Shown piece by piece: positions 10,143 through 61,368 of a stretch of 64,000 nucleotides of DNA. The stretch spans positions 5,956,001 to 6,020,000 of the forward strand of contig OX387611.1 in NCBI GenBank assembly GCA_947568835.1. Reading direction: 5' to 3'. How positions within the stretch are numbered: the first letter of the stretch is position 1; each line of letters begins with the position of its first letter. This DNA is from Protonemura montana (taxonomy: Eukaryota; Arthropoda; Insecta; Plecoptera; Nemouridae). The notes below the pieces were generated by a model, which saw only the letters and a program-made list of their open reading frames with translations, did no database searches and was not told the origin of the DNA. Position numbers and translations under genes: made by a program.

Positions 10143-10612
10143 GAAATGTCCAGCGCAGATGTGACGGTGAGTGTCCGCTCCTTTGCGTGGAGTGAAACAA
10201 GCACCCTGTCACGGAATGTCCAGCACAGAGGCGACGGCGAGTGTCCGCTTCTTTGCGTGGAGTGAAACAAGCACCCTGTCACGGAATGTCCAGCACAGAA
10301 GCGACGGTGAGTGTCCGCTCCTTTGCGTGGAGTGAAACAAGCACCCTGTCACTGAATGTCCAGCACAGAGGCGACGGCGAGTGCCGCTCCTTTGCGAGGA
10401 GCGAAACAAGCACCCTGTCACGGAATGTCCAGCACAGAGGCGACGGCGAGTGTCCGCTCATTTGCGTGGAGCGAAACAAGCACCCTGTCACGGAATGTCC
10501 AGCACAGAGGCGACGGCGAGTGTCCGCTCCTTTGCGTAAAGCGAAACAAGCACCCTGTCACGGAATGTCCAGCACAGAGGCGACGGCAAGTGTTCTGTCA
10601 CTCGCCTTCTGT
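10143..10612 (+). repeat. 70-bp minisatellite, locus 1 (~6.5 units)
   Basis: Unit begins GGAATGTCCAGCACAGAGGC and continues with GACGGCGAGTGTCCGCTCCT, TTGCGTGGAGCGAAACAAGC, ACCCTGTCAC; period 70. Each unit holds a potential hairpin CGCTCC-TTTGCGT-GGAGCG. Seventy is not a multiple of three, so the stop-free unit produces overlapping ORFs in all frames. Confidence 0.95.
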
Positions 10613-11425
10613 GAAGGAATGAATTAAAGATTTAGTTATGTAAAGTTGGATTTGAGACTAATTAAAAGGTCGTAGAATTTCCTCTTATCCTAATCTGATA
10701 ATTTTGTGGTTCTAAATCGCCTAATCTTTCAAAAGGTTTCTTTAGTCCTAGGAGTTGAACCCGGATCGAGGCATGTGGTTTTATTTGTTTCTTAGGGCAC
10801 TGTTTCCAGAGTACACTGTAAGTCACCTTAAGACTTGATACTTAGCTCTTTTTTCTACTAAGAAAGCTATGATAGAAGGTAATTCGAGATGACGATGCCG
10901 GTGTTGGTCTTTGGACGAGGGGCGAGGCGTGCACGCGGGGGGACTCCAGAGAGGTTAGGGTCAAAACACATTACCTATAATACCCGACGATGACGGTGGA
11001 ACTTTGATCAGAAATTTTATTTTTTTCGAATTTTAAATTACGATTAGTGAGTACAACATTTGAAAAGCGAAGATGGGAAGCTGTGAGAGTAGAAAAAAAA
11101 ATGGTTTACGAACGGTGTGTGAGAGAATGAAAAAAAAAACGAAGTAACGAACTCTTGGCCACGAATCTCCGTGAACTTTTATTATCGTCAGACGAAAGAT
11201 ATTATAAAAGAGTCCCATTAGATTCTACTCAGGCCAGATGTCCGTGAGAATGCTAAAGTGCATTTGACACAGACCTGTTAGTGGTCCTAGAAAATAAATT
11301 AACAAAGATGCAGAAAATGCAGTCAAAGCCGAGTGCTTGATGTTAGAAAGCAATTTAGACTATTTTGATTATTTTGGTGATAGTTACCATAGGGAAACCA
11401 GTGTTTAAGTGATCATTAAAGTTAA
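10613..11425. other. Intergenic, nothing recognised
   Basis: Mixed composition. A short GC-rich patch at about 10890-10955 (GAGGGGCGAGGCGTGCACGC) has no identifiable role. Confidence 0.4.
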
Positions 11426-11427
11426 GT

Positions 11428-11968
11428 TACACTGTGTTGGGTCAGGTATTAGATTGCTGACCACCGTGCGGTTTGGCGTGCTGGAAACACCGGTTCTCAT
11501 GAGATAACAGAAGTTGAGCAATACTGTGTTAGGTCAGGTTTTGGATAGCTAACCACCGTGCGGTTTGGCGTGTTTGAAACAATGGTTCTCATGAGATTAC
11601 CGAAGTTAAGCTCCAATGTATTGAGTCAGGTACTGGATGGGTGAGAACCAGTTCTGTTCGGGAGAGAGGTTGGAGGGATATAAGTTAGTACAGCAACTTC
11701 ATTCGCCTTGCTTAACAACCTCTCAACAGCATGGATTTGTAAATGAATCATTTTTTTTGTGCTGTATCGTCCTTCGGAAGGGACATTAAGCCGGTGGTCC
11801 CATTGGTCTTTGACAAGAGTAAGCTACGTGCCGGCACCGGATTTACCCTCCTCCCTTCTAGTCTAGGTTATGTCCATCATCATCCTCATTATCATCCACT
11901 CATAATCTGACGCCATTTGACGTAAGCCACAATACTCTTTGTTAAAACAGTGCGTCGTTAAACACAAC
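11428..11968 (+). mobile_element. 5S-headed SINE with tandem heads
   Basis: Two to three 5S-like heads (CCGAAGTTAAGC, GTCAGGTACTGGATGGGTGA) at 11428-11640 precede one body (GAGAGAGGTTGGAGGGATA, CTTCGGAAGGGACATTAAGC, GTGCCGGCACCGG) and the tail (AAACAGTGCGTCGTTAAACA at about 11945). The head retains internal pol III control motifs of 5S rRNA genes. Confidence 0.85.
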
Positions 11969-12309
11969 AAATACATCAACTCTCTTCAAAGGTGGATCGA
12001 GGTGTTGTGACAGAGCGTTGTTAAACGCACTCTATTTGATGTACATTGGATCTCACAGAGGCCATGTCAAACTGCGATGGTTTTCCCAGAATTGAAAATA
12101 ATTGTTCTGCCTTACACCAGCCACCTTTACGAACACTACTTACGTTTTGGAGATGGGCTATAAGAGTAGAAAACACTTCGGTCAAAAGAAATCTTTTAGT
12201 TTTTTGTTTGGAAAAGGTCTTTGATGTCTTGGATATATTTTTTTCTTGATTTTGGTCTAAAAAAAGTATTTTGTACCGATTTTTTAGGCTAAAAATCTCC
12301 TTTTTTTCT

Positions 12310-12548
12310 GTGCGTACATTCGACCTCTCTCCCGAACAGAACTGGTCATGTGCATGATGGTCACCCATCCAATACCTGACCCAGCGCAGTGTTGCTTAAC
12401 TTTCATCCCTCCAACCTCTCTCCCGAACAGAACTGGTCATGTGTATGATGGTCAACCATCCAATACTTGACTCAGCACAGTGCTGCTTAACTTCGGTGAT
12501 CTCACGAGAACCGGTATTTCAAACACGACAAACCGTTCGGTAGTCACC
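12310..12548 (-). mobile_element. 5S-SINE head segments, tandem
   Basis: Two reversed copies of the head plus CCTCTCTCCCGAACAGAACTGGTCATG, GTCACCCATCCAATACCTGA, then the 5S-like CTTCGGTGATCTCACGAGAACC. No body or tail follows. Confidence 0.75.
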
Positions 12549-13085
12549 CATCGAATTACTGACAGTAGTATTTGCAAAATACGATGCAGAGTATTAAACA
12601 TATTATAGGAGATCTCACCAGTTTCGATAATCTCTCGCAAATTGAGAAGAAAATCCACTGGCCCTAAAAAATATCTAAACTCAAAATTAATCAAATCCAT
12701 CTCTAGAGCCATTCACCTCTGACAGCCATCTGCCACACCAACTCTGTTGAACAGGTGATGACGTTTGACAGGTCTAAAGAGTAGCGCTCAGTGATAAATA
12801 GACCAAACACATCTACGACAGGTAACATGCTTAGGCGGGATAACCATAGCAACACTGTAACTACCATTCAAAGCCTTTCACTCCACAAGCCAAAGGCATA
12901 CTTCGTCATGCGTTGGCGTCGAAAAGGAATTCTCTTCGATCCACAGCTCTGAACCAAGGACCCGAGCTTTTGTTGGCCAAGTTGACCTCTGAATGAATGA
13001 CTTTTAAAAATCTATGCGAGTAAATAGTTCAATTAGTCCACCTACATGTTCGTCAAACATAGAGACGCAATAGACGATGTGCAAT
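12549..13085. other. Intergenic, nothing recognised
   Basis: Unique-looking sequence up to the large 129-bp array. No supported exon. Confidence 0.4.
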
Positions 13086-14349
13086 GAGACGAGGTGGGTT
13101 CTTGGCACGCTGCAAGCACAGCCATGGTGTGGTTCATACCCCACGACCTCCAGGCAAGGCTGGGATACGAGACATGGGACATGGAGGCAGGGTCCACATT
13201 AGGCAGGGCGCGATGGGACAGGGTGGGTTCTTGGCACGCTGCAAGCACAGCCATGGTGTGGTTCATACCCCACGACCTCCAGGCAAGGCTGGGACACGAG
13301 ACATGGGACATGGGGGCAGGGTCCACGTTAGGCAGGGCGCGATGGGACAGGGTGGGTTCTTGGCACGCTGCAAGCACAGCCATGGTGTGGTTCATACCCC
13401 ACGACCTCCAGGCAAGGCTGGAACACGAGACATGGGACATGGGGGCAGGGTCCAGGCAAGGCTGGGACACGAGACATGGGACATGGGGGCAGGGTCCACG
13501 TTAGGCAGGGCGCAATGGGACAGGGTGGGTTCTTGGCACGCTGCAAGCACAGCCATGGTGTGGTTCATACCCCACGACCTCCAGGCAAGGCTGGGACACG
13601 AGACATGGGACATGGGGGCAGGGTCCACGTTAGGCAGGGCGCGATGGGACAGGGTGGGTTCTTGGCACGCTGCAAGCACAGCCATGGTGTGGTTCATACC
13701 CCACGACCTCCAGGCAAGGCTGGAACACGAGACATGGGACATGGGGGCAGGGTCCAGGCAAGGCTGGGACACGAGACATGGGACATGGGGGCAGGGTCCA
13801 CGTTAGGCAGGGCGCAATGGGACAGGGTGGGTTCTTGGCACGCTGCAAGCACAGCCATGGTGTGGTTCATACCCCACGACCTCCAGGCAAGGCTGGGATA
13901 CGAGACATGGGACATGGGGGCAGGGTCCACGTTAGGCAGGGCGCGATGGGACAGGGTGGGTTCTTGGCACGCTGCAAGCACAGCCATGGTGTGGTTCATA
14001 CCCCACGACCTCCAGGCAAGGCTGGGACACGAGACATGGGACATGGGGGCAGGGTCCACGTTAGGCAGGGCGCGATGGGACAGGGTGGGTTCTTGGCACG
14101 CTGCAAGCACAGCCATGGTGTGGTTCATACCCCACGACCTCCAGGCAAGGCTGGGACACGAGACATGGGACATGGGGGCAGGGTTCACGTTAGGCAGGGC
14201 GCGATGGGACAGGGTAGGTTCTTGGCACGCTGCAAGCACAGCCATGGTGTGGTTCATACCCCACGACCTCCAGGCAAAGCTGGGACACGAGACATAGGAC
14301 ATGGGGGCAGGGTCCATGTTAGGCAGGGCGCGATGGGACAGGGTAGGTC
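13086..14349 (+). repeat. 129-bp minisatellite, locus 2 (~9-10 units)
   Basis: Units contain GGGTTCTTGGCACGCTGCAA, CACAGCCATGGTGTGGTTCA and AGGCAGGGCGCGATGGGACA, with a 129-bp period (13201 to 13330). Two units carry an extra ~44-bp duplication (GTCCAGGCAAGGCTGGGACA) at about 13450 and 13752, exactly 302 bp apart, showing a higher-order duplication. Apparent ORFs of up to 273 residues are repeat artefacts. Confidence 0.95.
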
Positions 14350-16925: not shown

Positions 16926-17026
16926 ACAGAATTCAAATTTTTGAGATACCGATCTGAAACGGGGAAACTGTAAATAAAGATTTAATTTAAATATATATTC
17001 ATAAATAGTATATAGGTGTATGCATT

Positions 17027-17112: not shown

Positions 17113-17455
17113 AATTGATACAATTTTCCGAGGTCAAATTCTAACTTTACTAGAACCCAAAATAATGTCTTTGATAAAATAAATTGCAAATGACAGAAGC
17201 ATCCATCCAACAGAGACAATTTGATGGTCTTTGTATTCCTTCTCATAAAAGATATATTTAAAACAGTTTTGTTTCCAACTTCCTATAAGACTGTGATTTC
17301 AAGAAAATCACCTCCCACATAATTTTCATAAATCACAACAAAAAGGGCAAAAGGGATCTTCGCTCGATGAAAAAGTTCCCACGATAAGCAACAATTACAA
17401 GTCCTCTGCCTTGACCACTCGTCCGGAAATCCGGAAGCCTAAACCGTCAAAAAAA
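17113..17455. other. AT-rich intergenic, nothing recognised
   Basis: No feature supported; ends at the reversed 70-bp array. Confidence 0.4.
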
Positions 17456-18091
17456 TATCGCTCTACGCAAAGAAGCGGACACTCGCCGTCGCCTCTGTGC
17501 TGGACATTCCGTGACAGGGCGCTTGTTTCACTCCACGCAAAGGAGCGGACACTCGCCGTCGCCTCTGTGCTGGACATTCCGTGACAGGGTGCTTGTTTCG
17601 CTCCACGCAAAGGAGCGGACACTCACCGTCGCCTCTGTGCTGGACATTCCGTGACAGGGTGCTTGTTTCGCTCCACGCAAAGGAGCGGACACTCGCCGTC
17701 GCCTCTGTGCTGGACATTCCGTGACAGGGTGCTTGTTTCGCTCCACGCAAAGGAGCGGACACTCGCCGTCGCCTCTGTGCTGGACATTCCTTGACAGGGT
17801 GCTTGTTTCGCTCCACGCAAAGGAGCGGACACTCGCCGTTGCCTCTGTGCTGGACATTCCATGACAGGGTGCTTGTTTCACTCCACGCAAAGGAGCGGAC
17901 ACTCGCCGTCGCCTCTGAGCTGGACATTCCGTGACAGGGCGCTTGTTTCGCTCAACGCAAAGGAGCGGACACTCGCCGTCGCCTCTGTGCTTGACATTCC
18001 GTGACAGGGTGCTTGTTTCGCTCCACGCAAAGAAGCGGACACTCGCCGTCGCCTCTGTGCTGGACATTCCGTGACAGGGCGCTTGTTTTAT
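17456..18091 (-). repeat. 70-bp minisatellite, locus 2 (~9 units)
   Basis: Same unit as at 10.1 kb but inverted (GTGACAGGGTGCTTGTTTCG, CTCCACGCAAAGGAGCGGAC). It starts inside the hairpin part of the unit and ends after GACAGGGCGCTTGTTT, so breakpoints differ from other loci. Confidence 0.95.
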
Positions 18092-18838
18092 GAATTACTT
18101 TTAACCAAACTAATCCACGAACTGCTTACTCGCATTCAGGAACTAGTGGTTTTCACGTTACGGTTTAGTCACCTTAATTGTCAACGTTTTGACACGCTTG
18201 GCTGGCACCGATTGTCTACATAATTTACATGCATGCGATATGGGAGATGATTCGGAAGAAGACGACTGCTGTCAAATAATTGGTAATTTACGGTATTCAT
18301 TCATAATTTTGATGTCAATGTGGTTTTATATACGCGTTAGAGGAAGTTGGGCATGGACAGCATTTCATGGGAAGGATATTTTGTCTATTACATTGTTTGT
18401 GACTCTCTATGAATGAATGTTGAAAGAAACTTAAAAAAAACACGCGATTTTTAATTCAAATTATATACTGATGAGATATTATAATAAATAGCTTCGTTTT
18501 TTTTAGATTTTCTTGGTTTTAGACCCATAGTATTATTTTTGTCAAGGCTAGATTGATACAAAAATTACATCTGTGTCTATATGACCCAGGATAAACATTT
18601 ATTAAAGATGTGATATTCTTTTGGTTTGAAAGAAATGAGCCTAATAACATTTCAACCAAAACTATTAATAATTAGCCTAGTTGTGCTTGAGAGCAATTAC
18701 TTAGCTAATACCAATATATCTTTATCTCTGCAAAAGTTAAGACAAGTGTGCATTTAGGCAAGTAATAGCCTCCACCTTCAGAGAGGTAATAGTTGTTAGG
18801 ATTACCCAACCCAATTGATCGCCAATTTTGATCACGAA
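18092..18838. other. Intergenic, nothing recognised
   Basis: AT-rich. A 75-residue ORF near 18189-18416 has a mixed composition with no known motif. Confidence 0.45.
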
Positions 18839-18839
18839 T

Positions 18840-19365
18840 TTGTTACCGAACGGTGGCGGTGTTGTAAACACCGGTCCTCGTGAGTTTACTCTTCTCACTG
18901 CGCTAGGTCAGATATTGGATGGGTGACCATCATACACATGACCAGTTCTGTTTGGGAGAGAGGTTGGAGGGATGAAAGTTAAGCTACACTGCGCTGGGTC
19001 AGATATTGGATGGGTGACCATCATACACATGACCAGTTCTGTTCGGGAGAGAGGTTGGAGGGATGAAAGTTAAGCAACACTGCGCTGAGTCAGGTATTGG
19101 ATGGGTGACCATTATACACATGACCAGTTCTATTCAGGAGAGAGGTTGGAGGGATGAAAGTTAAGCAACACTGCGCTGGGTCAGGTATTGGATGGGTGAC
19201 CATCATACACATGACCAGTTCTGTTCGGGAGAGAGGTTGGAGGGATGAAAGTTAAGCAACACTGCGCTGAGTCAGGTATTGGATGGGTGACCATCATACA
19301 CATGACCAGTTCTCTTTGGGAGAGAGGTTGAAGGGATGAAAGTTGAGCAACAAATGTTACTACTA
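18840..19365 (+). repeat. 91-bp tandem array of 5S-SINE heads (~5 units)
   Basis: Each unit joins the 3' half of the 5S-like head (GTTAAGCAACACTGCGCTGG, TATTGGATGGGTGACCATCA) to the SINE segment ACACATGACCAGTTCTGTTC and GAGAGAGGTTGGAGGGATGA. GATGAAAG recurs at 18971, 19062, 19153 and about 19245, a 91-bp period. No SINE body follows. Confidence 0.9.
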
Positions 19366-21444: not shown

Positions 21445-21745
21445 GCAGTGTTTCCAGCACACCTAACCGTTCGGAGGTCACACATCTAATACCTGACACA
21501 GCTCAGTGTTGCTTAACTTCAGTGATCTCACGAGGACCAGTGTTTCCAGCACGCCTAACCGTTCGGTGGTCACCCATCCAATACCTGACTTATCGCAGTG
21601 ATGCTTAACTTCGGTGATCTCACGAGGACCGGTGTTTCTAGGACGCCAAACCGTTCGGTTGTCACCCATCTAATACCTTAAACAGCGCAGTATTGCTTAA
21701 CTTCGGGCTTCTGACGATTACCGATGTTTTCAACGCGTCAAACTG
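21445..21745 (-). repeat. Tandem 5S-SINE heads (~3 units)
   Basis: Reversed 5S-like units with CACCCATCCAATACCTGACT, TTCGGTGATCTCACGAGGAC and CGGTGTTTC...ACGCCAAACCGTTCGG, spaced about 92 bp. Here the unit is the 5S-like head alone. Confidence 0.8.
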
Positions 21746-22149
21746 TTCTGTACAGCACGTTAAGAGACAGTTCTCCGAGTGAAGTCAAAGTGAAGAAGTA
21801 CGTACTTCACCTTTCATACTCGGACACGTTAAGAGTGCAATTACCTCAGTGGAGTACTTGCTTCTTTATTTGCTACTTTAAACGCACGGCAGCAGCAGAT
21901 GTCAATCGCTAAGATTTATGTCTCACACCGGGCAGAGTAGCCAGCAAATAAAACGTAAACACTTCTAAGCCAGTGACAAGAGTCATCTTCAAGGAAAAGT
22001 CTGCAAATTTGCCACATTCTGCTTGTCCATTTACGGAAATTAAATTACAGTGGGTTTTTTTCTTGAGGTGAAAGATCCCTTGTAGGTTGTTTGAGTTCGT
22101 GTAAGGATAAAATAAGATTAACAACTCATTTCACACACTTAAAAGATAA
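21746..22149. other. Unique sequence
   Basis: No feature recognised between the 5S-like units and the 70-bp array. Confidence 0.4.
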
Positions 22150-22603
22150 AAGCTCCCTGTCACGGAATGTCTAGCACAGAGGCGACAGCGAGTGTCCGCT
22201 CCTTTGCGTGGAGAAAAACATGCACCCTGTCACGGAATGTCCAGCACAGAGGCGACGGCGAGTGTCCGCTCCTTTGCGTGGAGTGAAACAAGCGCCCTGT
22301 CACGGAATGTCTAGCACAGAGGCGACAGCGAATGTCCGCTCCTTTGCGTGGAGCGAAACAAGCACCCTGTCACGGAATGTACAGCACAGAGGCGACGGCG
22401 AGTGTCCACTCCTTTGCGTGGAGCGAAACAAGCACCCTGTCACGGAATGTCCAGCACAGAGGCGACGGCGAGTGTCCGCTCCTTTGCGTGGAGCGAAACA
22501 AGCACCCTGTCACGGAATGTCCAGCACAGAGGCGACGGCGAGTGTCCGCTCCTTTGTGTGGAGCGAAACAAGCACCCTGTCACGGAATGTCCAGCTCAGA
22601 AAT
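22150..22603 (+). repeat. 70-bp minisatellite, locus 3 (~6.5 units)
   Basis: Plus orientation. The first unit is the most diverged (GGAGAAAAACATGCACCC). One unit reads GTCCACTCC, which breaks one pair of the conserved hairpin. The array ends at CCAGCTCAGA. Confidence 0.95.
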
Positions 22604-23052: not shown

Positions 23053-23300
23053 GAGACACAGAGTTGACGGCCTATGTCCATTCTGTTAATGGTAGCGAAG
23101 TGAACGTCGGTTCAGGCTCGTCCGCTGAGGGACAATGGCTTGACCCTGGTCGGTCATGGGTCACCGGGTCGTTGGAGTGTGAGGGGCGAAGGGAGGGGCG
23201 TTGAGGGGTCACGGTCTGATAGACAGTAGCAAGGCGGGTGCCGGATAGCACGGACGAAGCACGCGTTCGAAATTACTCCGTTTTGAAAGGGGAGGATTTG
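23053..23300. promoter_or_regulatory. CpG-rich unique segment, promoter-like
   Basis: A GC- and CpG-rich block (GTGAACGTCGGTTCAGGCTC, GGGTCACCGGGTCGTTGG, ACGGACGAAGCACGCGTTCG) stands out from AT-rich surroundings and matches no repeat here. It lies 1.5 kb upstream of the possible exon at 24786. The promoter role is inference only. Confidence 0.22.
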
Positions 23301-27069: not shown

Positions 27070-27690
27070 ATTGTGGTGTATAACGACGCACTGTTTTGAC
27101 ATCTGGCCTTGCGGCACTGGTCTAATGGCGTCGGTGAATGAGTGGATGATGATGAGGATGATGATGAACCTAACCTAGCCTAGAAGGGAGGAGGGAAAAA
27201 CCGGAACGTAGCCTACTCCTGTCGAAGAGCACAAAGGGGACCACCAGCTTAACGTCCCTTCCGAAGGACGGAACAACTCGAACAACAGGATTTCTCCACA
27301 AATCCATGCTGTCGAGAGGTTGATAAGCAAGGCGAGTGAAGTTACTGTACTAACTTTCATCCCTCCAACCTCTCTCCCGAACAGAACTGGTCATGTGTAT
27401 GATGGTCACCCATACAATACCTGACCCAGCGCAGTGTTGTTTAACTTTCATCCCTCCAACCTCTCTCCCGAACAGAACTGGTCATGTGTATGATGGTCAC
27501 CCATCCAATACCTGACTCAGCGCAGTGTTGTTTAACTTTCATCCCTCCAACCTCTCTCCCGAACAGAACTAGTCATGTGTATGATGGTCACCCATCCAAT
27601 ACCTGACTCAGCGCAGTGTTGTTTAACTTTCATCCCTCCAACCTCTCTCCCGAACAGAACTGGTCATGTGTATGATGATAATGGAAGCTA
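27070..27690 (-). mobile_element. 5S-headed SINE with tandem heads
   Basis: Reverse order: tail (GTATAACGACGCACTGTTTTGA), pre-tail (GATGATGATGAACCTAACC), body (AACGTCCCTTCCGAAGGACGG, CAAATCCATGCTGTCGAGAGG), then four 91-bp head units (GTTTAACTTTCATCCCTCCA, ACCTCTCTCCCGAACAGAAC, CCATCCAATACCTGACTC) up to 27680. The head array has the same 91-bp unit as 18.8-19.4 kb but remains attached to a body. Confidence 0.87.
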
Positions 27691-28300: not shown

Positions 28301-28693
28301 GCATTCAAACTCAATGGTACAAATTTGATTGTAATTTGTTACCGTATTTACTACTGTGGACTTCATAGACTTTTACTAAAGCAATAAACTCGTTGTAAAC
28401 TTTTAGTAAATAGGAAGCCTCACAATTGTTACCTATTATAGACATCTTTTCTAAAGCGTTTAAAAGATTTTTATCCTAAAAGCTGTTTTATATGAAAAGT
28501 GTTGTGAATTGCATGGCATTCAAATTTGATTTATTAACAAAGACAAATTGGCATTTCAAAGGTAAAATATTACCCTATGCAATATAAGCTGTGATAAAAA
28601 CACACCAAAAGCAATTCCTAAAACTAATTGTTATTTCCAGGAAATCTTCTGTACAAGTACTTACATATTGTGATAATTATTTCAAAACATAAT
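28301..28693. other. AT-rich intergenic
   Basis: Nothing recognised. Confidence 0.4.
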
Positions 28694-28730
28694 TGATTTG
28701 TGGTGTTAAACGACGCAATATTTTGACAAC
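28694..28730 (-). mobile_element. 5S-SINE tail fused to 70-bp array
   Basis: TTGTGGTGTTAAACGACGCA and ATATTTTGAC are the reversed SINE tail. The 70-bp array begins immediately after, in the middle of its unit, so the array joined or replaced the rest of a SINE. Confidence 0.6.
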
Positions 28731-29160
28731 GGCGAGTGTCCGCTCCTTTGCGTGGAGCAAAACAAGCATCCTGTCACGGAATGTCCAGCACAGAGGCGAC
28801 GGCGAGTGTCCGCTCCTTTGCGTGGAGCGAAACAAGCACCCTGTCACGGAATGTCCAGCACAGAGGCGACGGCGAGTGTCCGCTCCTTTGCGTGGAGCGA
28901 AACAAGCAGCCTGTCACGGAATGTCCAGCACAGAGGCGACGGCAAGTGTCCGCTTCTTTGCGTGGAGTGAAACAAGCACCCTGTCACGGAATGTCCAGCA
29001 CAGAGGCGACGGCGAGTGTCCGCTCCTTTGCGTGGAGCGAAACAAACACCCTGTCACGGAATGTCCAGCACAGAGGCGACGGCGAGTGTCCGCTCCTTTG
29101 CGTGGAGCGAAACAAGCGCCCTGTCACGGAATGTCCAGCACAGAGGCGACGGCGAGTGTC
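28731..29160 (+). repeat. 70-bp minisatellite, locus 4 (~6 units)
   Basis: Plus orientation, high identity. It starts at AACGGCGAGTGTCC and ends at GGCGAGTGTC. It faces the inverted locus 5 across about 800 bp. Confidence 0.95.
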
Positions 29161-29965
29161 ACATTTTTATTTCATTTCACCTTTGCTATAATTGGTAGAA
29201 AAATGTTTATCACGGCTCGATAAAAGCTTTACAGCAAAATTAAAATGGTAGATATCAGCGGAGATGATTTTTAGTGCTTTTAAAATAACGGTTGATCAGC
29301 ATGTGGCGCTTTTTTGGATAAGAATGTTTTTTTCGCTCAAAAGAGTATTTTTTTTTTTCGTTTACATCAAGACTACTTGATATATGGTTGTAATTTGCTT
29401 GATGACATTATTGAATTAGTCTCAAAAGTATATAATTGTGTGACTTACTTGTAAATACCTACGCAAAAGCATCAGTTTAAAACTCAAATCACTCTGAGTG
29501 CTTCAATTCTACAATTAACTATAATTTCACAACAACAGAAATTCTTTCACACAATAATTACCATCTGTTTTGGAAATTACCAATTAAATAACAATCCTAG
29601 GCTTTCTTGGCTAAAATCCGAACATAATTCGAATAAAATAACTCTAATAGGAAATTCACACCGAATGCTGTTCGGGTTAAGATTAAGAAGATCATGAATC
29701 TTGGGCAACAATGAAGATGATCGTCATCTCTGCGAACCGGCTGGCTGTCAGTCGAGAGCGATCAACCTGCTGTCCCTTTCGTGTGAATTAATCATGAATA
29801 TGACGCTTAATAAAAATAAAGCATCACGATGCCCGGACTTTTAGATTCAGACTAATCTCACAAAAGAGTTGGGTAAGGTAAGTGACCCTATTAGTTAGAC
29901 TTCTTAAAGTCAGTGGCGAAATTCAGGTACTTTTTTATTTTATTATGATGTCACCCTAAAGTAGC
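29161..29965. other. Spacer between inverted arrays; element G remnant
   Basis: About 29221-29315 (AAATTAAAATGGTAGATATCAGCGG ... GATCAGCATGTGGCGC) resembles element G at 36.1, 37.0 and 50.2 kb. The rest is unique AT-rich sequence. Confidence 0.45.
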
Positions 29966-29967
29966 GG

Positions 29968-31478
29968 AAGCGTCGCTGTGCTGGACATTCCGTGACAGGG
30001 TGCTTGTTTCGCTCTACGCAAAGGAGCGGACACTCGCCGTCGCCTCTGTGCTGAACATTCCATGACAGGGCGCTTGTTTCGCTCCACGCAAAGGAGCGGA
30101 CACTCGCCGTCGCCTCTGTGCTGGACATTCCGTGACAGGGTGCTTGTTTCACTCCACGCAAAGGAGCGGACACTCGCCGTCGCCTCTGTGCTGGACATAC
30201 CGTGACAGGGTGCTTGTTTCGCTCCACGCAAAGGAGCGGACACTCGCTTCGCCTCTGTGCTGGACATTCCGTGACAGGCTGCTTGTTTCGCTCCACGCAA
30301 AGGAGCGGACACTCACCGTCGCCTCTGTGCTGGACATTCCGTGACAGGGTGCTTGTTTCGCTCCACGCAAAGGAGCGGACACTCGCCGTCGCCTCAGTGC
30401 TGGACATTCCGTGACAGGGTGCTTGTTTCACTCCACGCAAAGGAGCGGACACTTGCCGTCGCCTCTGTGCTGGACATTCCGTGACAGGGTGCTTGTTTCA
30501 CTCCACGCAAAGGAGCGGACACTCGCCGTCGCCTCTGTGCTGGACATTCCGTGACAGGGTGCTTGTTTCGCTCCACGCAAAGAAGTGGACACTTGCCGTC
30601 ACCTCTGTGCTGGACATTCCGTGACAGGGCGCTTGTTTCGCTCCACGCAAAGGAGCGGACACTCGCCGTCGCCTCTGTGCTGGACATTCCGTGACAGGGT
30701 GCTTGTTTCGCTCCACGCAAAGGAGCGGACACTCGCCGTCGCCTCTGTGCTGGACATTCCGTGACAGGGTGCTTGTTTCGCTCCACGCAAAGGAGCGGAC
30801 ACTCGCCGTCGCCTCTGTGCTGGACATTCCGTGACAGGGTGCTTGTTTCGCTCCACGCAAAGAAGTGGACACTTGCCGTCACCTCTGTGCTGGACATTCC
30901 GTGACAGGGCGCTTGTTTCGCTCCACGCAAAGGAGCGGACACTCGCCGTCGCCTCTGTGCTGGACATTCCGTGACAGGGTGCTTGTTTCGCTCCACGCAA
31001 AGGAGCGGACACTCGCCGTCGCCTCTGTGCTGGACATTCCGTGACAGGGTGCTTGTTTCGCTCCACGCAAAGGAGCGGACACTCGCCGTCGCCTCTGTGC
31101 TGGACATTCCGTGACAGGTTGCTTGTTTCGCTCCACGCAAAGCAGGGGACACACGCCGTCGCCTCTGTGCTGGACATTCCGTGACAGGGTACTTGTTTCA
31201 CTCCACGCAAAGGAGCGGACACTCGCCGTCGCCTCTGTGCTGGGCATTCCGTGACAGGGTGTTTGTTTCGCTCCACGCAAAGGAGCGGACACTCGCCGTC
31301 GCCTCTGTGCTGGACATTCCGTGACAGGGTGCTTGTTTCGCTCCACGCAAAGGAGCGGACACTCGCCGTCGCCTCTGTGCTGGACATTCCGTGACAGGGT
31401 GCTTGTTTCGCTCCACGCAAAGAAGCGGACACTCGCCGTCGCCTCTGTGCTGGACATTCCGTGACAGGGTGCTTGTTA
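29968..31478 (-). repeat. 70-bp minisatellite, locus 5 (~21.6 units)
   Basis: Largest array of the family. One unit near 30230-30280 is 2-3 bp shorter. A variant unit (AGAAGTGGACACTTGCCGTC followed by GACAGGGCGCTTG) occurs at 30581 and 30861, exactly 280 bp apart, so at least one four-unit block has duplicated. Apparent ORFs of up to 277 residues are repeat artefacts. Confidence 0.96.
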
Positions 31479-31944
31479 CAATAGTTGTATTTTTATGTTC
31501 TCTGTGACTCAAAACTGTTGAAATTGAGCTTTGCGTAATGAAAATACGACCTAAAACATGTAAATCGTCTTCAAATCAAAAAAACAAACCCTGAACTCCG
31601 CCACTTGGCCGCTACAACAGAAACTTATCCGTCTCATCCATAATCTCACGATCTCTGAAGTCAGTCTCCGAAAATCTTGAAGAAGCCGAGAAAAGAAACA
31701 CGACGACGACGACGACGACGTCGAGAACAATCTTGCACCGTCGAGACACGATCGCCCGAATTGTGAATTGTATTTAAATGATAATTGTTGTAATATCCCA
31801 TCTGCCACCTGTTGGTCAGCAAGACTAGCAAGTACCTGTACAGCTTTTAGTGCAACCGGGGCAATAAGATTCATGTCTTTCAGTTTTACATCGGTGTTTT
31901 GACATTGGTGAAGATACAGTCGGATTAAATAACAATGGTTTCAG
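31479..31944. other. Unique sequence with (CGA)n
   Basis: A (CGA)6-7 microsatellite lies at 31701-31720. A 107-residue minus-strand ORF crosses it (poly-Ser from the microsatellite) but lacks any recognised motif or splice context. Confidence 0.45.
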
Positions 31945-32260
31945 TTGAAATCTTATTTAAATTGCAAACGCTTGCAATGCGCGGGGTATTTTATTATTAA
32001 CAACACTATAACCGTCTCAAAAATTGATGCCTAAACGGGGCCACGAACTACAATCTCCACCTATCACGGGTGTTGCTCTGAACCATTGAGCTACTTGGAC
32101 AATGGCTTTTTGAGACGATTTTAGTGTATTTGATGAGAATGACAGTTCTCCAAGGAGTAGAACTATGAGGCTGTGAATACTCACAGTCACTCTGATTCTA
32201 GTGACGCTATATCACGTCACAACCTGTCAAACTCGAATAACTCCAATTTGACGTTGAATT
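31945..32260 (-). mobile_element. tRNA-SINE, near full length
   Basis: Reverse: tail (GAAATCTTATTTAAATTGCA, AACGCTTGCAATGCGCGGGG), AACACTATAACCGTCTCAAA, tRNA-like head (CACCTATCACGGGTGTTGCT, CATTGAGCTACTTGGAC), then the body with TGATGAGAATGACAGTTCTC, AGGCTGTGAATACTCACAGT and GTGACGCTATATCACGTCAC. This is the best guide to the element's full structure. Confidence 0.8.
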
Positions 32261-33740: not shown

Positions 33741-34261
33741 TCCTGTTAATTTAGGAAAGTTTCGAGAAAAATCCCGGTTAAATATTACTTAAGCGAAGAC
33801 AATGGTGGTCACCCAGAAATGGAGTTACCATCACCCAATACATATAGGCATTAAATGAACTAGAATTCAAACAGTAACTCAAAAGATACCTTCTCACGTA
33901 CGCAGCCTTATCGCGAATGGACTATAGCATCCAAGACGTCTTCGTGAGATGACCACATGGTAATTGGGTTCAAAAGCCGATTGCAAGATTCGAAGCAAAT
34001 GGTTTCCAAGAAAACCCAATGCGCCAGAGATGACGATGAAAAGTTTATAAAAAAAGGTGAAATAAAAAGAAGAAGATTGAAACTGCTCTGTAATGTTTGT
34101 TCTGCAGATGACCGCTGTGACCGTTGGCATCGTCTGCTGCTGGCCGTTTTCTTGTTGCGGTTATTGGCTTAAACAATTATCACATTTGTGTACTCTCATC
34201 GTTAAAGATGTGAACGTAGTTTCTCGGTCTTAGATACTGACTGACCAGTAAGTTGCCTGAA
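33741..34261. other. Unique sequence
   Basis: No repeat recognised; short ORFs on both strands near 33894-34172 without recognisable products. Confidence 0.4.
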
Positions 34262-35032
34262 GCGAGGCTTGTATTGCCCCATGCAAAGGAGCGGACACTC
34301 GCCGTCACCTCTGTGCTGGACATTCCGTGACAGGGTGCTTGTATCGCTCCATGCAAAGGAGCGGACACTCGCCGTCGCCTCTGTGCTGCACATTCCGTGA
34401 CAGGGTGCTTGTATCGCTCCACGCAAAGGAGCGGACACTTGCCGTCGCCTCTGTGCTGGACATTCCGTGACAGGGTGCTTGATTCGCTCCACGCAAAAGA
34501 GCGGACACTCGCCGTCGCCTCTGTGCTGGACATTCCGTGACAGGGTGCTTGTATCGCTCCACGCAAAGGAGCGGACACTTGCCGTCGCCTCTGTGCTGGA
34601 CATTCCGTGACAGGGTGCTTGTTTCGCTCCACGCAAAGGAGCGGACACTCGCCGTCACCTCTGTGCTGGACATTCCGTGACAGGGCGCTTGTTTCGCTCC
34701 ACACAAAGGAGTGGACACTCGCCTTCGCCTCTGTGCTGGACATTCCGTGACAGGGTGCTTGTTTCGCTCCACGCAAAGAAGCGGACACTCGCCGTCGCCT
34801 CTGTGCTGGACATTCCATGACAGGGCGCTTGTTTCGCTCCACGCAAAGAAGCGGACACTCGCCGTCGCCTCTGTGCTGGACATTCCGTGACAGGGTGCTT
34901 GTTTCGCTCCACGCAAAGGAGCGGACACTCGCCGTCGCCTCTGTGCTGGACATTCCGTGACAGGGTGCTTGTTTCGCTCCACGCAAAGGAGCGGACACTC
35001 GCCGTCGCCTCTGTACTGGACATTCCTTGACA
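34262..35032 (-). repeat. 70-bp minisatellite, locus 6 (~11 units)
   Basis: Reverse orientation. Several left-hand units carry a GTATCGCTCC variant (for GTTTCGCTCC) shared only within this array, which fits local homogenisation. It ends at CATTCCTTGACAGAGG. Confidence 0.95.
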
Positions 35033-36120
35033 GAGGATCCTTCTTTTTCGGTTTAAAAAATCTTCGTTTATTTCACTGGTTTTTTTTTTTGCAAAAAAAT
35101 ACTGAGCATGTGCACGAATAGTTCCGCATTATTTTCGGGGCAAATTTTGCCTGAAGCCTACAATCTGTTGACTTGAATTTGATGATTACGCTGTCAGTTG
35201 AATTCATGATGCAATTTTTTCCTGGGTTTGTTAAAATTATGCAATACATTTTAAAAGCAATGTTAATGCACTGCTAAGTAATTTTTGGGGAGGTTATTTC
35301 CATAAATGACTTCAGTAGATGAGCTGCGTCGCCCGCTGTGCTCTCTTGGAGGTATTTATTCTATGCGGAATAACCGCACAGGACGTTAAGTGCAAAATTA
35401 TAACAATATTTTGCAAATCTGATTAATATTTCATTTTTTGCAAACTATAATTAAGATTGTTTTTAAAGTGTGACAGATATGTGTATACGTACCTGGTCTT
35501 AGCTATGACAAAATGATACACCTGTGCATTAGTTACATTTGGACGGATCTGAGTTTGAGTACATATTTATGATTGTAAATTATCAATAGGAATAACGCAA
35601 AGACATTGTTTAGCGCCCAGCATTTGGTTTATTTGACTGATTGAAAAAAATTAAACATAAGATTAACACAGGGACATTTTTCGAACATTGGTACCTAATT
35701 TACATTGAATGAAAATATTTGAAATAATTTTGAAAAAATATTCATTTTTAACATACTAGTTGTTTATAAAAAAATATGCTTTTATAAAAAATTTCGTTTT
35801 TTAGCACGTAACCAAAGTAATCTGTCAGGTTTTGAGCAAATTTGTATGCTATTTTTGCGTCGATGGAGGTGCCGTGCTCTTCGAAATCTCAGATATTTAT
35901 TTAATTTCGCAAGCAGATATCGCTTCAGTCTGCCCTCGGGGATAAATATCGACTGAAGAACTGCCCCCCAGCATTGCTAACAACCCATCAATTAAACTTC
36001 AATTCTAATTTCAGTGATGAGAATTCAAAAAACTTATTATTTCTCCAAAATAATTATCAATATCGTTATATAGTTAGTTAAGTAATTCTTATGAAAGCTG
36101 GATAAATAAAACACCTTTAC
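35033..36120. other. AT-rich intergenic
   Basis: Over 1 kb without recognised repeats or exons. Confidence 0.45.
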
Positions 36121-53272: not shown

Positions 53273-53274
53273 TT

Positions 53275-53520: not shown

Positions 53521-54145
53521 GAATTTTTCCCAAAAACTACTATCTCTGTAGTTGTATAGGTACATAATTTGTATGTTCTAAAATTAGCTTTTAGAAGAGT
53601 TTCAAGCTTCGAAATTAATATATATTAACCGTTGGAAAGATTTGTCTAGCTTAAGCAATTGTACTAAACCATGTATACCTATTATATTTTGAAACCCTTT
53701 TTTTTTAAGAGAAGTAGGATTGTTATAAAAAAAAAATACATATATTATGCAAATTTTCAAGCAGACTCGGCACGAACATTTAGTAAACTAGCAGGTGCAC
53801 CTGATTTGCGTGTCTTAAAGCAACCAATCACTCTTCAATAACCTAATTAAATTCTGTTACAGATTCATTTATTTTAAACATGAATATCGTGTAACATCAA
53901 AGCAGGAAGGAATAAAACCGATATCAAGTTTCTATGTGCACTCGATCACCGGATTGAGTTTGCTATATTTTTTTTCTAGCTAAAATCAATCAATCAACCT
54001 TGATTTCCAGCTAATGAGACGTGTGCGCCCTATGCACAGGTATGTGTGACCGAGTTGCCTAAACCGACACTGATTTTTCTCAAACTCAATTATAGTATTT
54101 TCATAGTCTAAGTGCTCCCAATTCTTTTTACCTAAAATATTCGTA
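53521..54145. other. AT-rich intergenic
   Basis: Nothing recognised. Confidence 0.4.
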
Positions 54146-54735
54146 TGTGTCCGCTTCTTTGCGTGGAGCGAAACAAGCGCCCTGTCACGGAATGTCCAGC
54201 ACAGAGGCGACGGCGAGTGTCCGCTCCTTTGCGTGGAGCGAAACAAGCACCCTGTCACGGAATGTCCAGCACAGAGGCGACGGCGAGTGTCGGCTCCTTT
54301 GCGTGGAGCGAAACAAGCACCCTGTCACGGAATGTCCAGCACAGAGGCGACGACGAGTGTCCGCTTCTTTGCGTGGAGCGAAACAAGCGCCCTGTCACAG
54401 AATGTCCAGCACAGAGGCGACGGCGAGTGTCCGCTCCTTTGCGTGGAGCGAAACAAGCACCCTGTCACGGAATGTCCAGCACAGAGGCGACGGCGAGTGT
54501 CCGCTCCTTTGCGTGGAGTGAAACAAGCACCCTGTCACGGAATGTCCAGCACAGAGGCGACGGCGAGTGTCCGCTCCTTTGCGTGGAGTGAAACAAGCAC
54601 CCTGTCACGGAATGTCTAGCACAGAGGCGACGGCGAGTGTCCGCTTCTTTGCGTGGAGCGAAACAAGCGCCCTGTCACGGAATGTCCAGCACAGAGGCGA
54701 CGGCGAGATTCCGCTTCTTTGCATGGAGCGAAATG
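54146..54735 (+). repeat. 70-bp minisatellite, locus 7 (~8.4 units)
   Basis: Plus orientation; starts at GTGTCCGCTTCTTTGCGTGG and ends at GCATGGAGCGAAATGAGG. TTC units keep the hairpin stem through G-T pairing. Confidence 0.95.
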
Positions 54736-55503
54736 AGGTGTGGTTTAGGCGCCTCGAGACAAAGTAATTAGCATGATCAAAACGAATGAGCTTGACGCAT
54801 GCGCTGCCATTGAAACGGGCGCGCGTTCGTTTAAATCTGATTACCGTTAATTCGTGGCCAATTAGATGTTTCGTTTTCGGTTCGATCGGCCGATCGTCTC
54901 AACTCTCAATCACTATTAGATTAATTTTTACTTCCTTATTTTATTTTTTATTTTTTTGCTTTTCTTGGACACCGCCATCTCTTATTGTGCTCACATCAAT
55001 AAAGTTGCAAGGCAGCGGGCGACCACTTGTGTATAGAATATTTTTTATGCCCCTTAATTTTGTTGTGGCTAATTAACGTGTTGGGTTGTAATTTATTCTA
55101 ATTAGCTGCTGATTTGTGAGGCGTTTTCTGAACTATTACAATAAAAATCGAATTAAAAACGTTTTATTTTCATCACCAGTGCACTGTGGTTAAAACGCGA
55201 TGACGTCGGTATTCAAAATACACTGTTATTTGTGATTACTTCTCTGAAATGTCTATTTGAAAGGCTATTGCAAAGATTACCTGAATTTTATTTTATTTTC
55301 TGTTTTTAATTGACCCGTTTTAATGCTGCCGGATTTTTCGGTAGCCTTTCGGCGATTCTTACGATAACGATTCATTGCCAACAGATCCTTTAGCTGTAGC
55401 TAATTTAAAAGAGATGATGCAACTGCGTTTTAATTGTTCCAGCGATCATTTATCACCCAGAAACCCACTCGTGCAAGTCTCAATTCTACATGGAAAACAT
55501 TCC
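54736..55503. other. Unique AT-rich sequence
   Basis: A CpG-containing patch at 54790-54905 (GAAACGGGCGCGCGTTCG, CGATCGGCCGATCG) has no identified role. Confidence 0.4.
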
Positions 55504-55504
55504 T

Positions 55505-56784: not shown

Positions 56785-56786
56785 TC

Positions 56787-57772: not shown

Positions 57773-57774
57773 GT

Positions 57775-58012
57775 TAATGAAAAACTTTCTGTTGAGCAAA
57801 CGAGCCGGCAATATGTGGTAACGTTAGGTGCCAACCGATGGCTTGTGGGCGTTTTTTTTTTTTTTTAAACTTCTACAATTAGATAAAAACGGATCAAAAT
57901 ATCGATACATGTTTATCGATCGTTGAGGTTATCATTAATAAAGATTAATTGAGCGTGGACCAGTCTCAAATGCGAGTAATCTGCGAGAATTATAGAAATA
58001 AAATTCTGAACG
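57775..58012 (+). mobile_element. Element C copy
   Basis: GAGCAAACGAGCCGGCAATA, AAAATATCGATACATGTTTA, TCGTTGAGGTTATCATTAAT, CAGTCTCAAATGCGAGTAAT. Truncated on the right. Confidence 0.72.
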
Positions 58013-58664: not shown

Positions 58665-58666
58665 AA

Positions 58667-59092
58667 GTGTGGGTCGTACCCCACGACCTCCAGGCACGAC
58701 TGGGACACGAGACATGTGACATGGGGGCAGGGTCCACGTTAGGCAGGGCGCAATGGGACAGGGTGGGTTCTTGGCACACTGCATGCACAGCCATGGTGTG
58801 GTTCATACCCCACGACCTCCAGGCAAGGCTGGGACACGAGGCATGGGACATGGGGGCAGGGTCCACGTTAGACAGGGTGCGATGGAACAGAGTGGGTTCT
58901 TGGCACACTGAAAGCACAGCCATGGTGTGGTTTATACCCCACGACCTCCAGGCAAGGCTGGGACACGAGACATGGGACATGGAGGCAGGGTCCACGTTAG
59001 ACAGGGCGCGATGGGACAGGGTGGGTTCTTGGCACACTGCAAGCACAGCCATGGTGTGGTTCATACCCCACAACCTCCAGACAAGACTGGTA
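58667..59092 (+). repeat. 129-bp minisatellite, locus 4 (~3.3 units)
   Basis: Same orientation as locus 2 but more diverged (TTGGCACACTGCATGCACAG, GATGGAACAGAGTGGG). Locus-specific CACACTG for CACGCTG is shared by its units. Confidence 0.9.
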
Positions 59093-59748
59093 CGTAGAAT
59101 TGTACGATTTTTCATCAATTACTCCTTGGATTATCTTTCTCTTTAGCTTCAGACTGCGCCATAAGCACAACATTATTTTAAAACTATTTTAACAGCAAGG
59201 CCGGCTGCTTCTCCTGACCGTCTGCATCTTAAATGATTTTATGCCGAAGTATCCGAGCGAAAAATTACATACAAATTAAACGACTTCCTACGAAACATGA
59301 TTTAGAAGAGCAATTATCAATGCAAAAAAAAACAGCCGGTTCTTTTGTCAAAATCACATACAACCGGTGCTACTGTCTGATTTTAAATTGCAGTGTTAAT
59401 GAACCCGAGTTATTGCCATTCGTCCAACTTTATGTTAATTAACCACTTTTCAATTGGCATCGAGTGCTCGCCCGCTAATCCGCTCGTAGAGCACGTGCTG
59501 GCAAGTAATTAGCCAGATGTTTAGATCACCTGGTCCATCTTGTAATCTCTTAACAATTTAATTCAATCGTCAAAGTGGTTGGTCGCTAGTGAGAGAGTCG
59601 AGTCGAGTGGAGAAATAACAACTCGAAATATTTTAGTGACTGAGTCAACATGCGCGGGGGCATTGTGGACCATTTGAGTTACCGGTAATTCTGAGTAGCA
59701 CCGCCATACAATGTTTAAACTATCACGTTCGTATCACGTTTTTGTGAC
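59093..59748. other. Unique sequence
   Basis: A 69-residue ORF at 59233-59442 is unrecognised. No repeat seen. Confidence 0.4.
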
Positions 59749-59749
59749 G

Positions 59750-60245
59750 GGATGGTTTGGCGAAACACCGCTTCTCGTGAGACCACTGAAGTTTAGCAAC
59801 TCTGCGTTAGGTCAGGTGTTGGATGGGTGACCACTGAACGGTTTGGCGGGTTGGAAACACCGGTCCACGTGAGATCACCGAAGTTAAGCAACACTGCGTT
59901 GGGTCAGGTATTGGATGTGTGACCACCGAACGGTTTGGCGTGTTGGAAACACCGGTTCTCGTGAGATCACCGAAGTTAAGCAACACTGCGTTGGATCAGA
60001 TTATTGATGGATGACTACCGAACGGTTTGGCGTGTTGGAAACACCGGTCCACGTGAGATAACTGAAGTTAAGCAACACTGCGTTGGGTCAGGTATTGGAT
60101 GTGTGACCACCGAACGGTTTGGCGTGTTGGAAACACCGGTTCTCGTGAGATCACCGAAGTTAAGCAACACTGCGTTGGATCAGATATTTGATGGATGACT
60201 ACCGAACGGTATAGCGAGCTGAAAACATCGGTCCTTGTGAGAAAC
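59750..60245 (+). repeat. 92-bp tandem 5S-like array (~5 units)
   Basis: Units: CGAACGGTTTGGCGTGTTGG, AAACACCGGTTCTCGTGAGA, TCACCGAAGTTAAGCAACAC, TGCGTTGGGTCAGGTATTGG, ATGTGTGACCAC. Units alternate between GGTCCACGTG and GGTTCTCGTG types; the former recur at 59861 and 60045, 184 bp apart, so the repeat is a dimer. Only the central part of 5S rRNA is present, so these are SINE heads and not functional 5S genes. Confidence 0.88.
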
Positions 60246-60745
60246 ACTGCTATATTAGAAAAATTCCTAGCACTCAGTTACTCCATCTAGTAGAATCCTC
60301 ATTTGGAAAAGGTAGCAATTTTTCGCAAAACAGTTCATACTAAACGCTAGCGCTTTGATTGAACCGCTACTCTCAATGACAAAGACATGGTAGACAACAT
60401 TTTGATACCATATCAAACAACGACAGGATAAAACTGTTCTCGACCATCTCGTTTCTCATAGTCTGTAGTTAGTGATGTCCACTCTAGGTACGCTTTATTA
60501 GTACAACATACTTGACATGCTAATTCAGCTTTGTGAACTCTGTCCTTCATGGCACTGCAAGCTGCATTAGCCTATGGAAATATTGACATACCACCTTGCT
60601 GAGTGGACTCACCAGGTCACGTGACGTTGGTACACTCCGGTGCAAAGGTATAATTGACTAGAAAAACACTATGTTAGTTGCTGGAATCTATGTTATTCTT
60701 GGAGAAACTTTTGGGCAGCCCGATCCATTGGCGGGTACGTAACAG
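60246..60745. other. Unique sequence
   Basis: A weak match to element C (CAGTTACTCCATCTAGTAGA, CAGTTCATACTAAACGCTAGCGC) at about 60270-60360; otherwise nothing. Confidence 0.4.
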
Positions 60746-61368
60746 GCACCCTGTCATGGAATGTCTAGCACAGAGGTGACGTTAAGTGTCCGCTACTTTG
60801 CGTGGAGCGAAACAAGCACCCTGTCATGGAATGTCTAGCACAGAGGTGACGTTAAGTGTCCGCTACTTTGCGTGGAGCGAAAAAAGCACCCTGTCACGGA
60901 ATGTCCAGCACAGAGGCGACGGCGAGTGTCCGCTTCTTTGCGTGGAGCGAAACAAGCGCCCTGTCACGGAATGTCCAGCACAGAGGCGACGGCGAGTGTC
61001 CGCTTCTTTGCGTGGAGCGAAACAAGCGCCCTGTCACGGAATATCCAGCACAGAGGCGACGGCGAGTGTCCGCTCCTTTGCGTGGAGCGAAACAAGCACC
61101 CTGTCACGGAATGTCCAGCACAGAGGCGACGGCGAGTGTCCGCTCCTTTGCGTGGAGCGAAACAAGCAGCCTGTCACGGAATGTCCAGCTCAGAGGCGAC
61201 GGCGAGTGTCCGCTCCTTTGCGTGGAGCGAAACAAGCACCCTGTCACGGAATGTCCAGCATAGAGGCGACGGCGAGTGTCCGCTCCTTTGCGTGGAGCGA
61301 AACAAGCACCCTGTCACGGAATGTCCAGCACAGAGGCGACGGCGAGTGGCCGCTTCTTTGCTTGGCGC
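60746..61368 (+). repeat. 70-bp minisatellite, locus 8 (~9 units)
   Basis: Plus orientation. The first two units carry the same unusual changes (TCATGGAATGTCTAGCACAG, GGTGACGTTAAGTGTCCGCT), so they arose by recent tandem duplication of an edge unit. The right edge is decayed (GTGGCCGCTTCTTTGCTTGG). Confidence 0.95.

Follow-up and report, generated by a model that had tools for sequence, protein, structure and literature searches.

A single 70-bp minisatellite occurs at eight places within the window, the 64,000-nucleotide stretch of Protonemura montana DNA analysed here (assembly GCA_947568835.1, contig OX387611.1, positions 5,956,001 to 6,020,000), which raises the question of how one repeat family came to be scattered among seemingly unconnected surroundings. 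As no bounded element was visible, the initial annotation had inferred spread via circular or rolling-circle DNA. The present analysis points in part elsewhere. Part of the arrays adjoin worn inverted end signals and seem to sit inside old mobile elements whose repeats are uniform and whose ends have decayed. A by-eye verdict of no shared flank can conceal such short decayed ends.

One repeat unit at eight loci

Array boundaries were taken from TRF calls, in agreement with wraparound alignment. The reported picture of one unit at eight places, in both orientations and with about 78 copies, was borne out, with TRF copy numbers summing to 77.9. Five arrays lie on the forward strand, at 10141-10593 (6.5 copies), 22150-22600 (6.4 copies), 28729-29160 (6.2 copies), 54147-54733 (8.4 copies) and 60720-61368 (TRF 60741-61365; about 9 copies, the first units diverged). 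The three reverse-strand arrays occupy 17458-18088 (9.0 copies), 29976-31477 (21.5 copies) and 34267-35033 (11.0 copies). The array at 1-590 also has a 70-bp period, but its unit is different. Genome-wide, a segment of 47 bases from the unit is found at 3878 places with at most 3 mismatches, against 0 in the reversed control; at about 15 units each, this would amount to an estimated 250-300 arrays.

Arrays had been described as ending at different phases of the unit. The ends do vary, but over 66 arrays neither the start phases (Rayleigh p = 0.0013) nor the end phases (p = 0.02) are uniform, and 27 of 66 right ends are located at unit positions 53-63.

A degenerate inverted motif at array borders

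The flanking sequences had been called unrelated, which is wrong as stated. A short, degenerate, outward-facing motif lies on at least one side of the array in 22 of 68 entries, compared with 2 of 68 in which it is wrongly oriented. The motif is a 31-bp imperfect dyad, GGAGCGAAAC-N7-GGTTTAGGCNCCTT, in which the inner arm is sequence of the 70-bp unit and GGTTTAGGCNCCTT is the 14-bp arm. Correspondingly, the inverted ends of about 31 bp read AAGGNGCCTAAACC-N7-GTTTCGCTCC, again with the inner arm common to the unit. The spacer measured exactly 7 in all six matches of a search that permitted 4-14, and at the 49 listed sites it often starts with AAGC, as in the unit, and ends with C.

The counts above refer to the 14-bp arm within 150 bp of the array; both sides carry it in 5 of 68 entries, and in 46 of 68 it was not detected at this threshold. 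The matrix was built from 49 sites, to which 4 right ends among the 68 entries contributed. The left side, which played no part in motif discovery, gave 9 outward against 0 wrongly oriented arms (p = 0.003). Around 96 tandem arrays of other periods, the arm above 8 bits was found twice outward and twice inward, that is, without enrichment, and the notion of an end motif common to other minisatellites was dropped. Separately, a 129-bp array was seen to terminate on GTCTTAGGCTGCTT.

Of two genome-wide searches, one returned 49 motif sites and the other 84, each with a single site in its reversed control. Among the 84 sites, those less than 5 kb apart form four convergent pairs versus one divergent pair (read by eye). 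The convergent pairs are spaced 0.7, 1.0, 1.8 and 3.6 kb, an arrangement of inverted ends and small size as in a MITE. Where the right motif is present the array runs into it, and its presence is not significantly tied to an end phase of 53-63 (10 of 18 with the motif, 17 of 50 without; p = 0.16). At the left end, the complementary arm is clear at 10038-10068, L063 and L066; most of the other left ends shown have it in degenerate form.

Restricted to the window, a search with the 14-bp arm gave 9 matches above 10 bits, one of them within an array, versus 4 in the reversed sequence. Four of the eight arrays have the motif, two on both sides and two on one. The array at 54147 is framed by an inverted left motif at 54052-54082 (reverse strand, 18.2 bits) and a right motif at 54725-54755 (forward strand, 34.7 bits), the latter overlapping the last unit in register and being among the 49 matrix sites; together they bound a 704-bp element, 54052-54755. 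A second two-armed element, 17432-18175, holds the array at 17458 between an outer arm at 17432-17445 (reverse strand, 11.6 bits; the right end in unit orientation) and an inverted outer arm at 18162-18175 (forward strand, 20.6 bits; the left end in unit orientation). On one side only, the array at 10141 has an inverted 31-bp left motif at 10038-10068 (reverse strand, 31.2 bits), its right side being without a detected motif, and the array at 34267 has a weak right motif at 34250-34280 (reverse strand, 13.8 bits over 31 bp). A possible end motif at 23092-23122 (forward strand, 16.7 bits) lies 492 bp rightward of the array at 22150, to which its link is uncertain. No end motif exceeded the threshold at 29976 or 60720, and none was found at 28729.

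Flanks and junctions

Beyond the end motif, the sampled loci have no flank in common save a segment shared by L036-L039 and a few dispersed repeats. The suggested inspection of junctions for target-site duplications yielded none of at least 3 bp at any offset tried in 10 end pairs; 3-bp matches in two pairs (L004 and L034/61) were not upheld over the 10. A TTAA target was likewise dropped by eye because the bases outside CCTT are unconserved. Among the sampled loci, no paralogous empty site spans a junction and no flank pairs are linked.

The array at 28729 abruptly interrupts a dispersed SINE-like repeat, with ACGG common to both at the junction (by eye). As its start coincides with the exact break of that repeat and no end motif is present, element-free insertion may hold for part of the arrays.

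Arrays and borders differ in divergence

Array interiors are about 2.6-2.7% diverged, whereas divergence reaches 9.1% in the final 22 bp of the 26 arrays that end at positions 55-63, a figure biased by the alignment that defines the stub. The end arms, which match at 2 to 12 of 13 positions, are more diverged than this adjacent stub, and over 34 arrays the outer-arm match runs through all grades from absent to almost complete. End arms more diverged than the stub beside them are not what a single common age would predict; the array and its borders appear to be of different ages. The difference offers a test of whether dispersed satellite arrays are carried within elements, homogenised across distant loci or seeded where a site already existed.

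Units differ by 2.97 mismatches within arrays and 3.18 between arrays, and unit composition is similar among arrays less than 1 Mb apart (permutation p = 0.0005). Since units from different loci resemble each other almost as closely as those of one locus, and the ends are much more diverged, a process acting in trans is needed, which ectopic recombination, gene conversion or homology-driven integration of circles could each supply. The sampled arrays give no support for blocks having recently been copied from one locus to another: only 1 ordered adjacent pair of rare unit types is common to different arrays, against a mean of 0.4 and a maximum of 3 in 300 shuffles. Long duplications within single arrays do exist; in the L030/31 array, for example, the block comprises 29 units. 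The proposal of circular or rolling-circle spread thus keeps its need for some trans process and loses recent whole-block transfer between the sampled loci.

Origin of the dispersed arrays

The motif faces outward on both sides of arrays, is specific to the 70-bp repeat and forms convergent pairs, and divergence is lower in the interiors than in the terminal stubs and end arms. The explanation we favour, with a probability of roughly 0.55, is that old, small, non-autonomous elements (MITE- or HINE-like) with short inverted ends contain the arrays as their internal or subterminal tandem repeat, the array having been homogenised or re-seeded in trans. Some transposase or Rep protein acting on the inverted ends would have dispersed the elements long ago. 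Ends and spacers would afterwards have diverged, while the array interiors may have been kept or made uniform in trans via ectopic recombination, gene conversion or renewed seeding from a shared unit pool. Uniform interiors with decayed ends would give the look of one family without shared flanks. Several results weigh against this reading: the 46 entries without a detected arm, the missing target-site duplications, the right motif's lack of a significant tie to end phase, end arms more diverged than the stub, the window count of 9 arm matches versus 4 in the reversed sequence, the contribution of 4 right ends to the matrix and the failure to find an autonomous partner. A terminal motif common to all loci had been named by the initial annotation as the finding that would contradict its circular-DNA inference; an inverted terminal motif exists, but with detection in only 22 of 68 entries the refutation is partial.

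The 31-bp motif could instead be a pre-existing site, arrays having been added later at old dyad copies. Either homology to the inner arm GGAGCGAAAC(AAGC) or a site-directed enzyme would have guided the addition, the breakpoints on the opposite side being variable. Such an origin is unlikely, although it sits well with the array-free motif pair at L063 (by eye), the spacer that often opens and closes as noted, array interiors younger than their borders and the lack of target duplication. The graded outer-arm match also fits, but decay alone is expected to give the same gradation; further, a new or unrecognised joining step is demanded, and an element would itself be expected to display inverted motifs on both sides and convergent pairs. 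It is similarly doubtful that the minisatellite spreads by in-register writing onto old GGAGCGAAAC-N7-GGTTTAGGCNCCTT dyads, where breaks or recombination would draw on a shared pool and copy its units in trans; if true, old unrelated loci would gain near-identical arrays with no flank transposed.

Free reinsertion, whereby arrays or unit circles enter unrelated places without a bounded element (as eccDNA or rolling-circle products, by end joining or microhomology), is quite improbable as a general account. The excess of outward motifs, the non-uniform phases of starts and ends and the unshared multi-unit blocks all weigh against it, whereas the 46 of 68 entries without a detected arm, the break with shared ACGG at 28729 (by eye) and again the missing target duplication speak in its favour. 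Least credible of all, and highly improbable, is that the motif is a dyad site for a regulatory protein near which repeats happen to accumulate. Its fixed spacing and the L061 dyad upstream of TATAAAT and ATG (read by eye) would suit such a site; the inverted outward arrangement and the unenriched 96 other tandem arrays would not. The favoured reading of old non-autonomous elements can be set beside known systems.

Comparison with known systems

HINEs are non-autonomous Helentrons with central satellite-like repeats, and the portion of the report on oyster Cg_HINE considered here (PMC7492417) describes several features that recur in the stonefly: inverted subterminal motifs, a stretch of variable length and sequence followed by an array of satellite-like units, and no target-site duplication (here of at least 3 bp, in 10 end pairs). 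The oyster elements also have a complementary arm separated by a short spacer, which in the stonefly is clear at some of the left ends shown and degenerate at most. According to the same portion, oyster HINEs within a cluster share more than 80% in the 60-bp right flank, whereas nothing beyond the motif is shared between loci here. The HINE-type 3' palindrome described there is also not in excess. Palindromes seen by eye in L002, L045, L062 and L063 did not hold up as a conserved feature: after the right motif of 25 ends the mean score was 5.00, identical to that at 150 bp downstream, and scores above 6 occurred in 7 of 25 ends, where downstream DNA gave 4 of 25 and 6 of 23 and shuffles gave 26 of 250; the ends thus exceed shuffles yet not DNA further downstream. 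Helitron genes are abundant in the genome (207 candidates, 150 scored), with near-identical Helitron-like copies (C7, C8) among them, but no positional link between them and the 70-bp arrays was found; among the matches listed, all are more than 100 kb away from each of the 84 motif sites (positions compared by eye).

Rehavkus and MULE-like elements, in the part of PMC6446971 used, likewise carry a minisatellite that immediately precedes one inverted end, the 3' TIR, and the end length of about 31 bp falls within their stated 26-400 bp. Their 9-bp target duplication is absent from the 10 end pairs here. Judged by eye, the 54 MULE matches listed and the 84 end sites nowhere come closer than 100 kb to each other; the genome searches for MULE and Helitron genes linked no autonomous partner to these arrays. 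A weak 15-base site at C14:399117, outside the 31-bp site set, has a weak MULE match roughly 9 kb away.

The lack of a target-site duplication of at least 3 bp in 10 end pairs also departs from a generic MITE. As far as the material on Galileo and Tetris extends, these foldback-type elements with tandemly repeated TIRs resemble the present case in that tandem repeats are tied to inverted ends. In foldback elements both inverted ends are of tandem repeats; the two-ended elements in the window, in contrast, have the array at one end only, and at least one motif pair (L063) is array-free. Finally, the dispersed satellite arrays of molluscs, in the section of PMC5139131 drawn on, are similarly short, with unrelated, abrupt surroundings and decayed edge units; what distinguishes the stonefly arrays from them is the degenerate inverted motif that recurs beside the repeats.

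Distribution of the 70-bp arrays

The initial annotation described one 70-bp minisatellite at eight loci, with about 78 copies in both orientations, and this description holds: TRF finds eight arrays of the unit in the window with 77.9 copies in total, five on the plus and three on the minus strand. A wraparound aligner recovers the same eight, the last beginning 21 bp earlier than in the TRF call. When the genome was searched (258 Mb in 34 contigs, the window being C14:5956001-6020000), a 47-base part of the unit gave 3878 matches at up to three mismatches, and the reversed control gave none. Sixty loci were fetched around picks among the matches listed, so that the sample is biased to good arrays and comes mainly from contigs C2 and C14. 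Together with the window they contain 73 70-bp arrays, from which four truncated at locus edges and L037-L039, copies of L036, were removed; the remaining 66 and two composites (L030/31 and L034/61) make up 68 entries.

The four loci L036, L037, L038 and L039, all on C4, have in common a 92-99% identical segment, at least some 2 kb long, that holds a 70-bp array and a repeat of 106-bp period; arrays have thus also been copied within larger segments. L030 and L031 (C2:27293629-27303311) form a 9.7-kb array of about 138 copies with an internal 29-unit duplication. At L061, on the minus strand, TATAAAT and an ATG with a splice-donor-like GTGAGT were seen by eye within about 150 bp past the array end, so this array seems to lie just upstream of a gene.

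An inverted motif beside the arrays

Once the junctions were sorted, a GGTTTAGGC-like word was found to recur past the right end of arrays, read in unit orientation. Searched to 120 bp with up to three mismatches, it turns up in 14 of the 66 right flanks and, in that orientation, in no left flank; under the same mismatch limit it occurred in one background stretch and in two reversed right flanks. The spacer after the unit's GGAGCGAAAC is exactly 7 bases in 6/6 genome matches to a pattern permitting 4 to 14. The resulting 31-bp pattern (a 14-bp outer arm, the spacer and an inner arm of unit sequence) has 49 genome sites versus 1 in the reversed control, and the matrix for scanning flanks was built from these 49.

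Left flanks played no part in motif discovery, and 9/68 entries have the inverted outer arm there at a distance of up to 150 bp, versus 0/68 with a wrongly oriented arm (p = 0.003). Right flanks give 18 versus 2 among 68 entries (p = 0.00014); this test has some circularity, as the motif was discovered there and four right ends (L010, L060, window 54147 and L034/61) fed the matrix. Either side carries an outward arm in 22/68 entries and both sides in 5/68, versus 2/68 for the wrong orientation. The earlier view that the flanks are unrelated is thus correct only in part: 22 of 68 entries have a short outward arm, and 46 show none at this threshold. Association between the right motif and the phase of the array end was not significant (p = 0.16, 68 entries).

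Enrichment was absent from other repeats: 96 non-70-bp tandem arrays from the window and fetched loci, scanned to 120 bp, gave two outward and two inward arms. A second pattern found 84 genome sites versus 1 in its control. Read by eye, these include four convergent pairs less than 5 kb apart on C2 (0.7, 1.0, 1.8 and 3.6 kb) and one divergent pair. By eye, no array is seen at the pair in L063; two further convergent pairs were inspected at the ends alone.

Elements in the window

A two-ended element spans 54052-54755; it contains a plus-strand array, and its ends score 18.2 and 34.7 bits over 31 bp. Outer arms also lie on either side of the minus-strand array at 17458-18088, scoring 11.6 and 20.6 bits over their 14 bp. 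The plus-strand array at 10141 shows a strong left end alone (31.2 bits), the minus-strand array at 34267 a right end that is weak (13.8 bits), and the plus-strand array at 22150 a possible end 492 bp off. In the matrix scan of the window, no end motif above threshold accompanies the arrays at 28729, 29976 and 60720. The 14-bp arm has nine matches above 10 bits over the whole window, one of them within an array, versus four in the reversed sequence, which calls for caution; the evidence lies in placement and orientation beside arrays.

The array at 28729 begins exactly where a copy of a dispersed repeat breaks off (28691-28728, core GTTTAACGACGCACTGTTTTGA); the remainder of that copy was sought in 28301-32200 and not found. 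Numerous copies of this repeat, SINE-like by eye, are spread across many of the fetched loci.

Other tandem repeats were noted too. Arrays of 91/92 bp, whose unit looks 5S rRNA-derived, occupy 11419-11638, 12323-12493, 18896-19352, 21446-21748, 27351-27677 and 59762-60242; of the seven window matches to 5S rRNA given by Rfam, some lie within or adjoin these arrays, and the window and fetched loci contain 23 period-91 arrays. A further period-70 array at 1-590 has a different, unrelated unit. The 129-bp array at 13081-14348 terminates on GTCTTAGGCTGCTT, which is end-motif-like (12.6 bits). At L028 (4473-4672), each unit of a 37-38-bp tandem repeat has GGTTTAGGCTCCTTA, the word marking the ends of 70-bp arrays, or a near copy.

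Divergence within and between arrays

The units are uniform: 1068/1092 are 70 long, and these have a mean identity to consensus of 97.4%. Only three positions (40, 53 and 63) vary by more than 7%, and variation is 3.4% at CpG positions versus 1.3% elsewhere. Units differ by 2.97 on average within and 3.18 between arrays (47 arrays of at least 8 units), the within-array value being lower in 33/47; one ordered pair of adjacent rare unit types is common to different arrays (0.4 expected). Among 54 arrays with at least 6 units, those less than 1 Mb apart are more alike at positions 40, 53 and 63 (0.41 versus 0.61, p = 0.0005).

Difference from consensus is 2.67 in first full units, 1.82 in the middle and 1.51 in last units (61 arrays), the left and right edge units differing weakly (p = 0.047) once positions 40, 53 and 63 are excluded. 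The terminal 22 bp of the 26 arrays ending at unit positions 55-63 are 9.1% diverged, versus 2.7% in array interiors. In 34 arrays the outer arm was scored at a constant distance from the last inner arm: it agrees at 2 to 12 of 13 positions, and a few of the 34 still show unit sequence there. At least 7/13 match in 16/34, versus 2.2% of control positions. Because divergence is higher at borders and outer arms than inside, array interiors are either of more recent origin than the borders or more strongly homogenised.

Origin of the arrays and comparison with known elements

Most simply, the arrays would belong to an old set of small elements that are bounded by short inverted ends and carry a 70-bp array beside one of them; the array interiors would have stayed, or become, uniform in trans. 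Alternatively, arrays could have been written onto pre-existing copies of the end motif, a reading we retain because the outer arm appears more decayed than the adjoining stub, the terminal 22 bp at the array border.

Helitron genes are abundant in the genome (150 scored of 207 candidates); by eye, none among the matches listed is less than 100 kb from any of the 84 end-motif sites, and the same holds for MULE matches (0/54). Near-identical Helitron_like_N matches occur in great number on C7, C8 and C33, with clusters on C4, C11, C12 and C15, and the majority of those listed sit in 1000-2060-aa open frames. Their spacing on C7 and C8 is about 9-25 kb, as if both contigs consisted of Helitron arrays.

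We do not assign these elements to HINEs, non-autonomous Helentrons with central satellite-like repeats, as 25 of their ends showed no excess of the HINE-type palindrome over DNA further downstream, or to Rehavkus, as its 9-bp duplication was not found in 10 end pairs. Dispersed satellite arrays with abrupt junctions in molluscs (PMC5139131) were also compared. In anatomy, the 70-bp array elements are similar both to HINEs (PMC7492417) and to Rehavkus, a MULE-like element with a minisatellite before its 3' TIR (PMC6446971).
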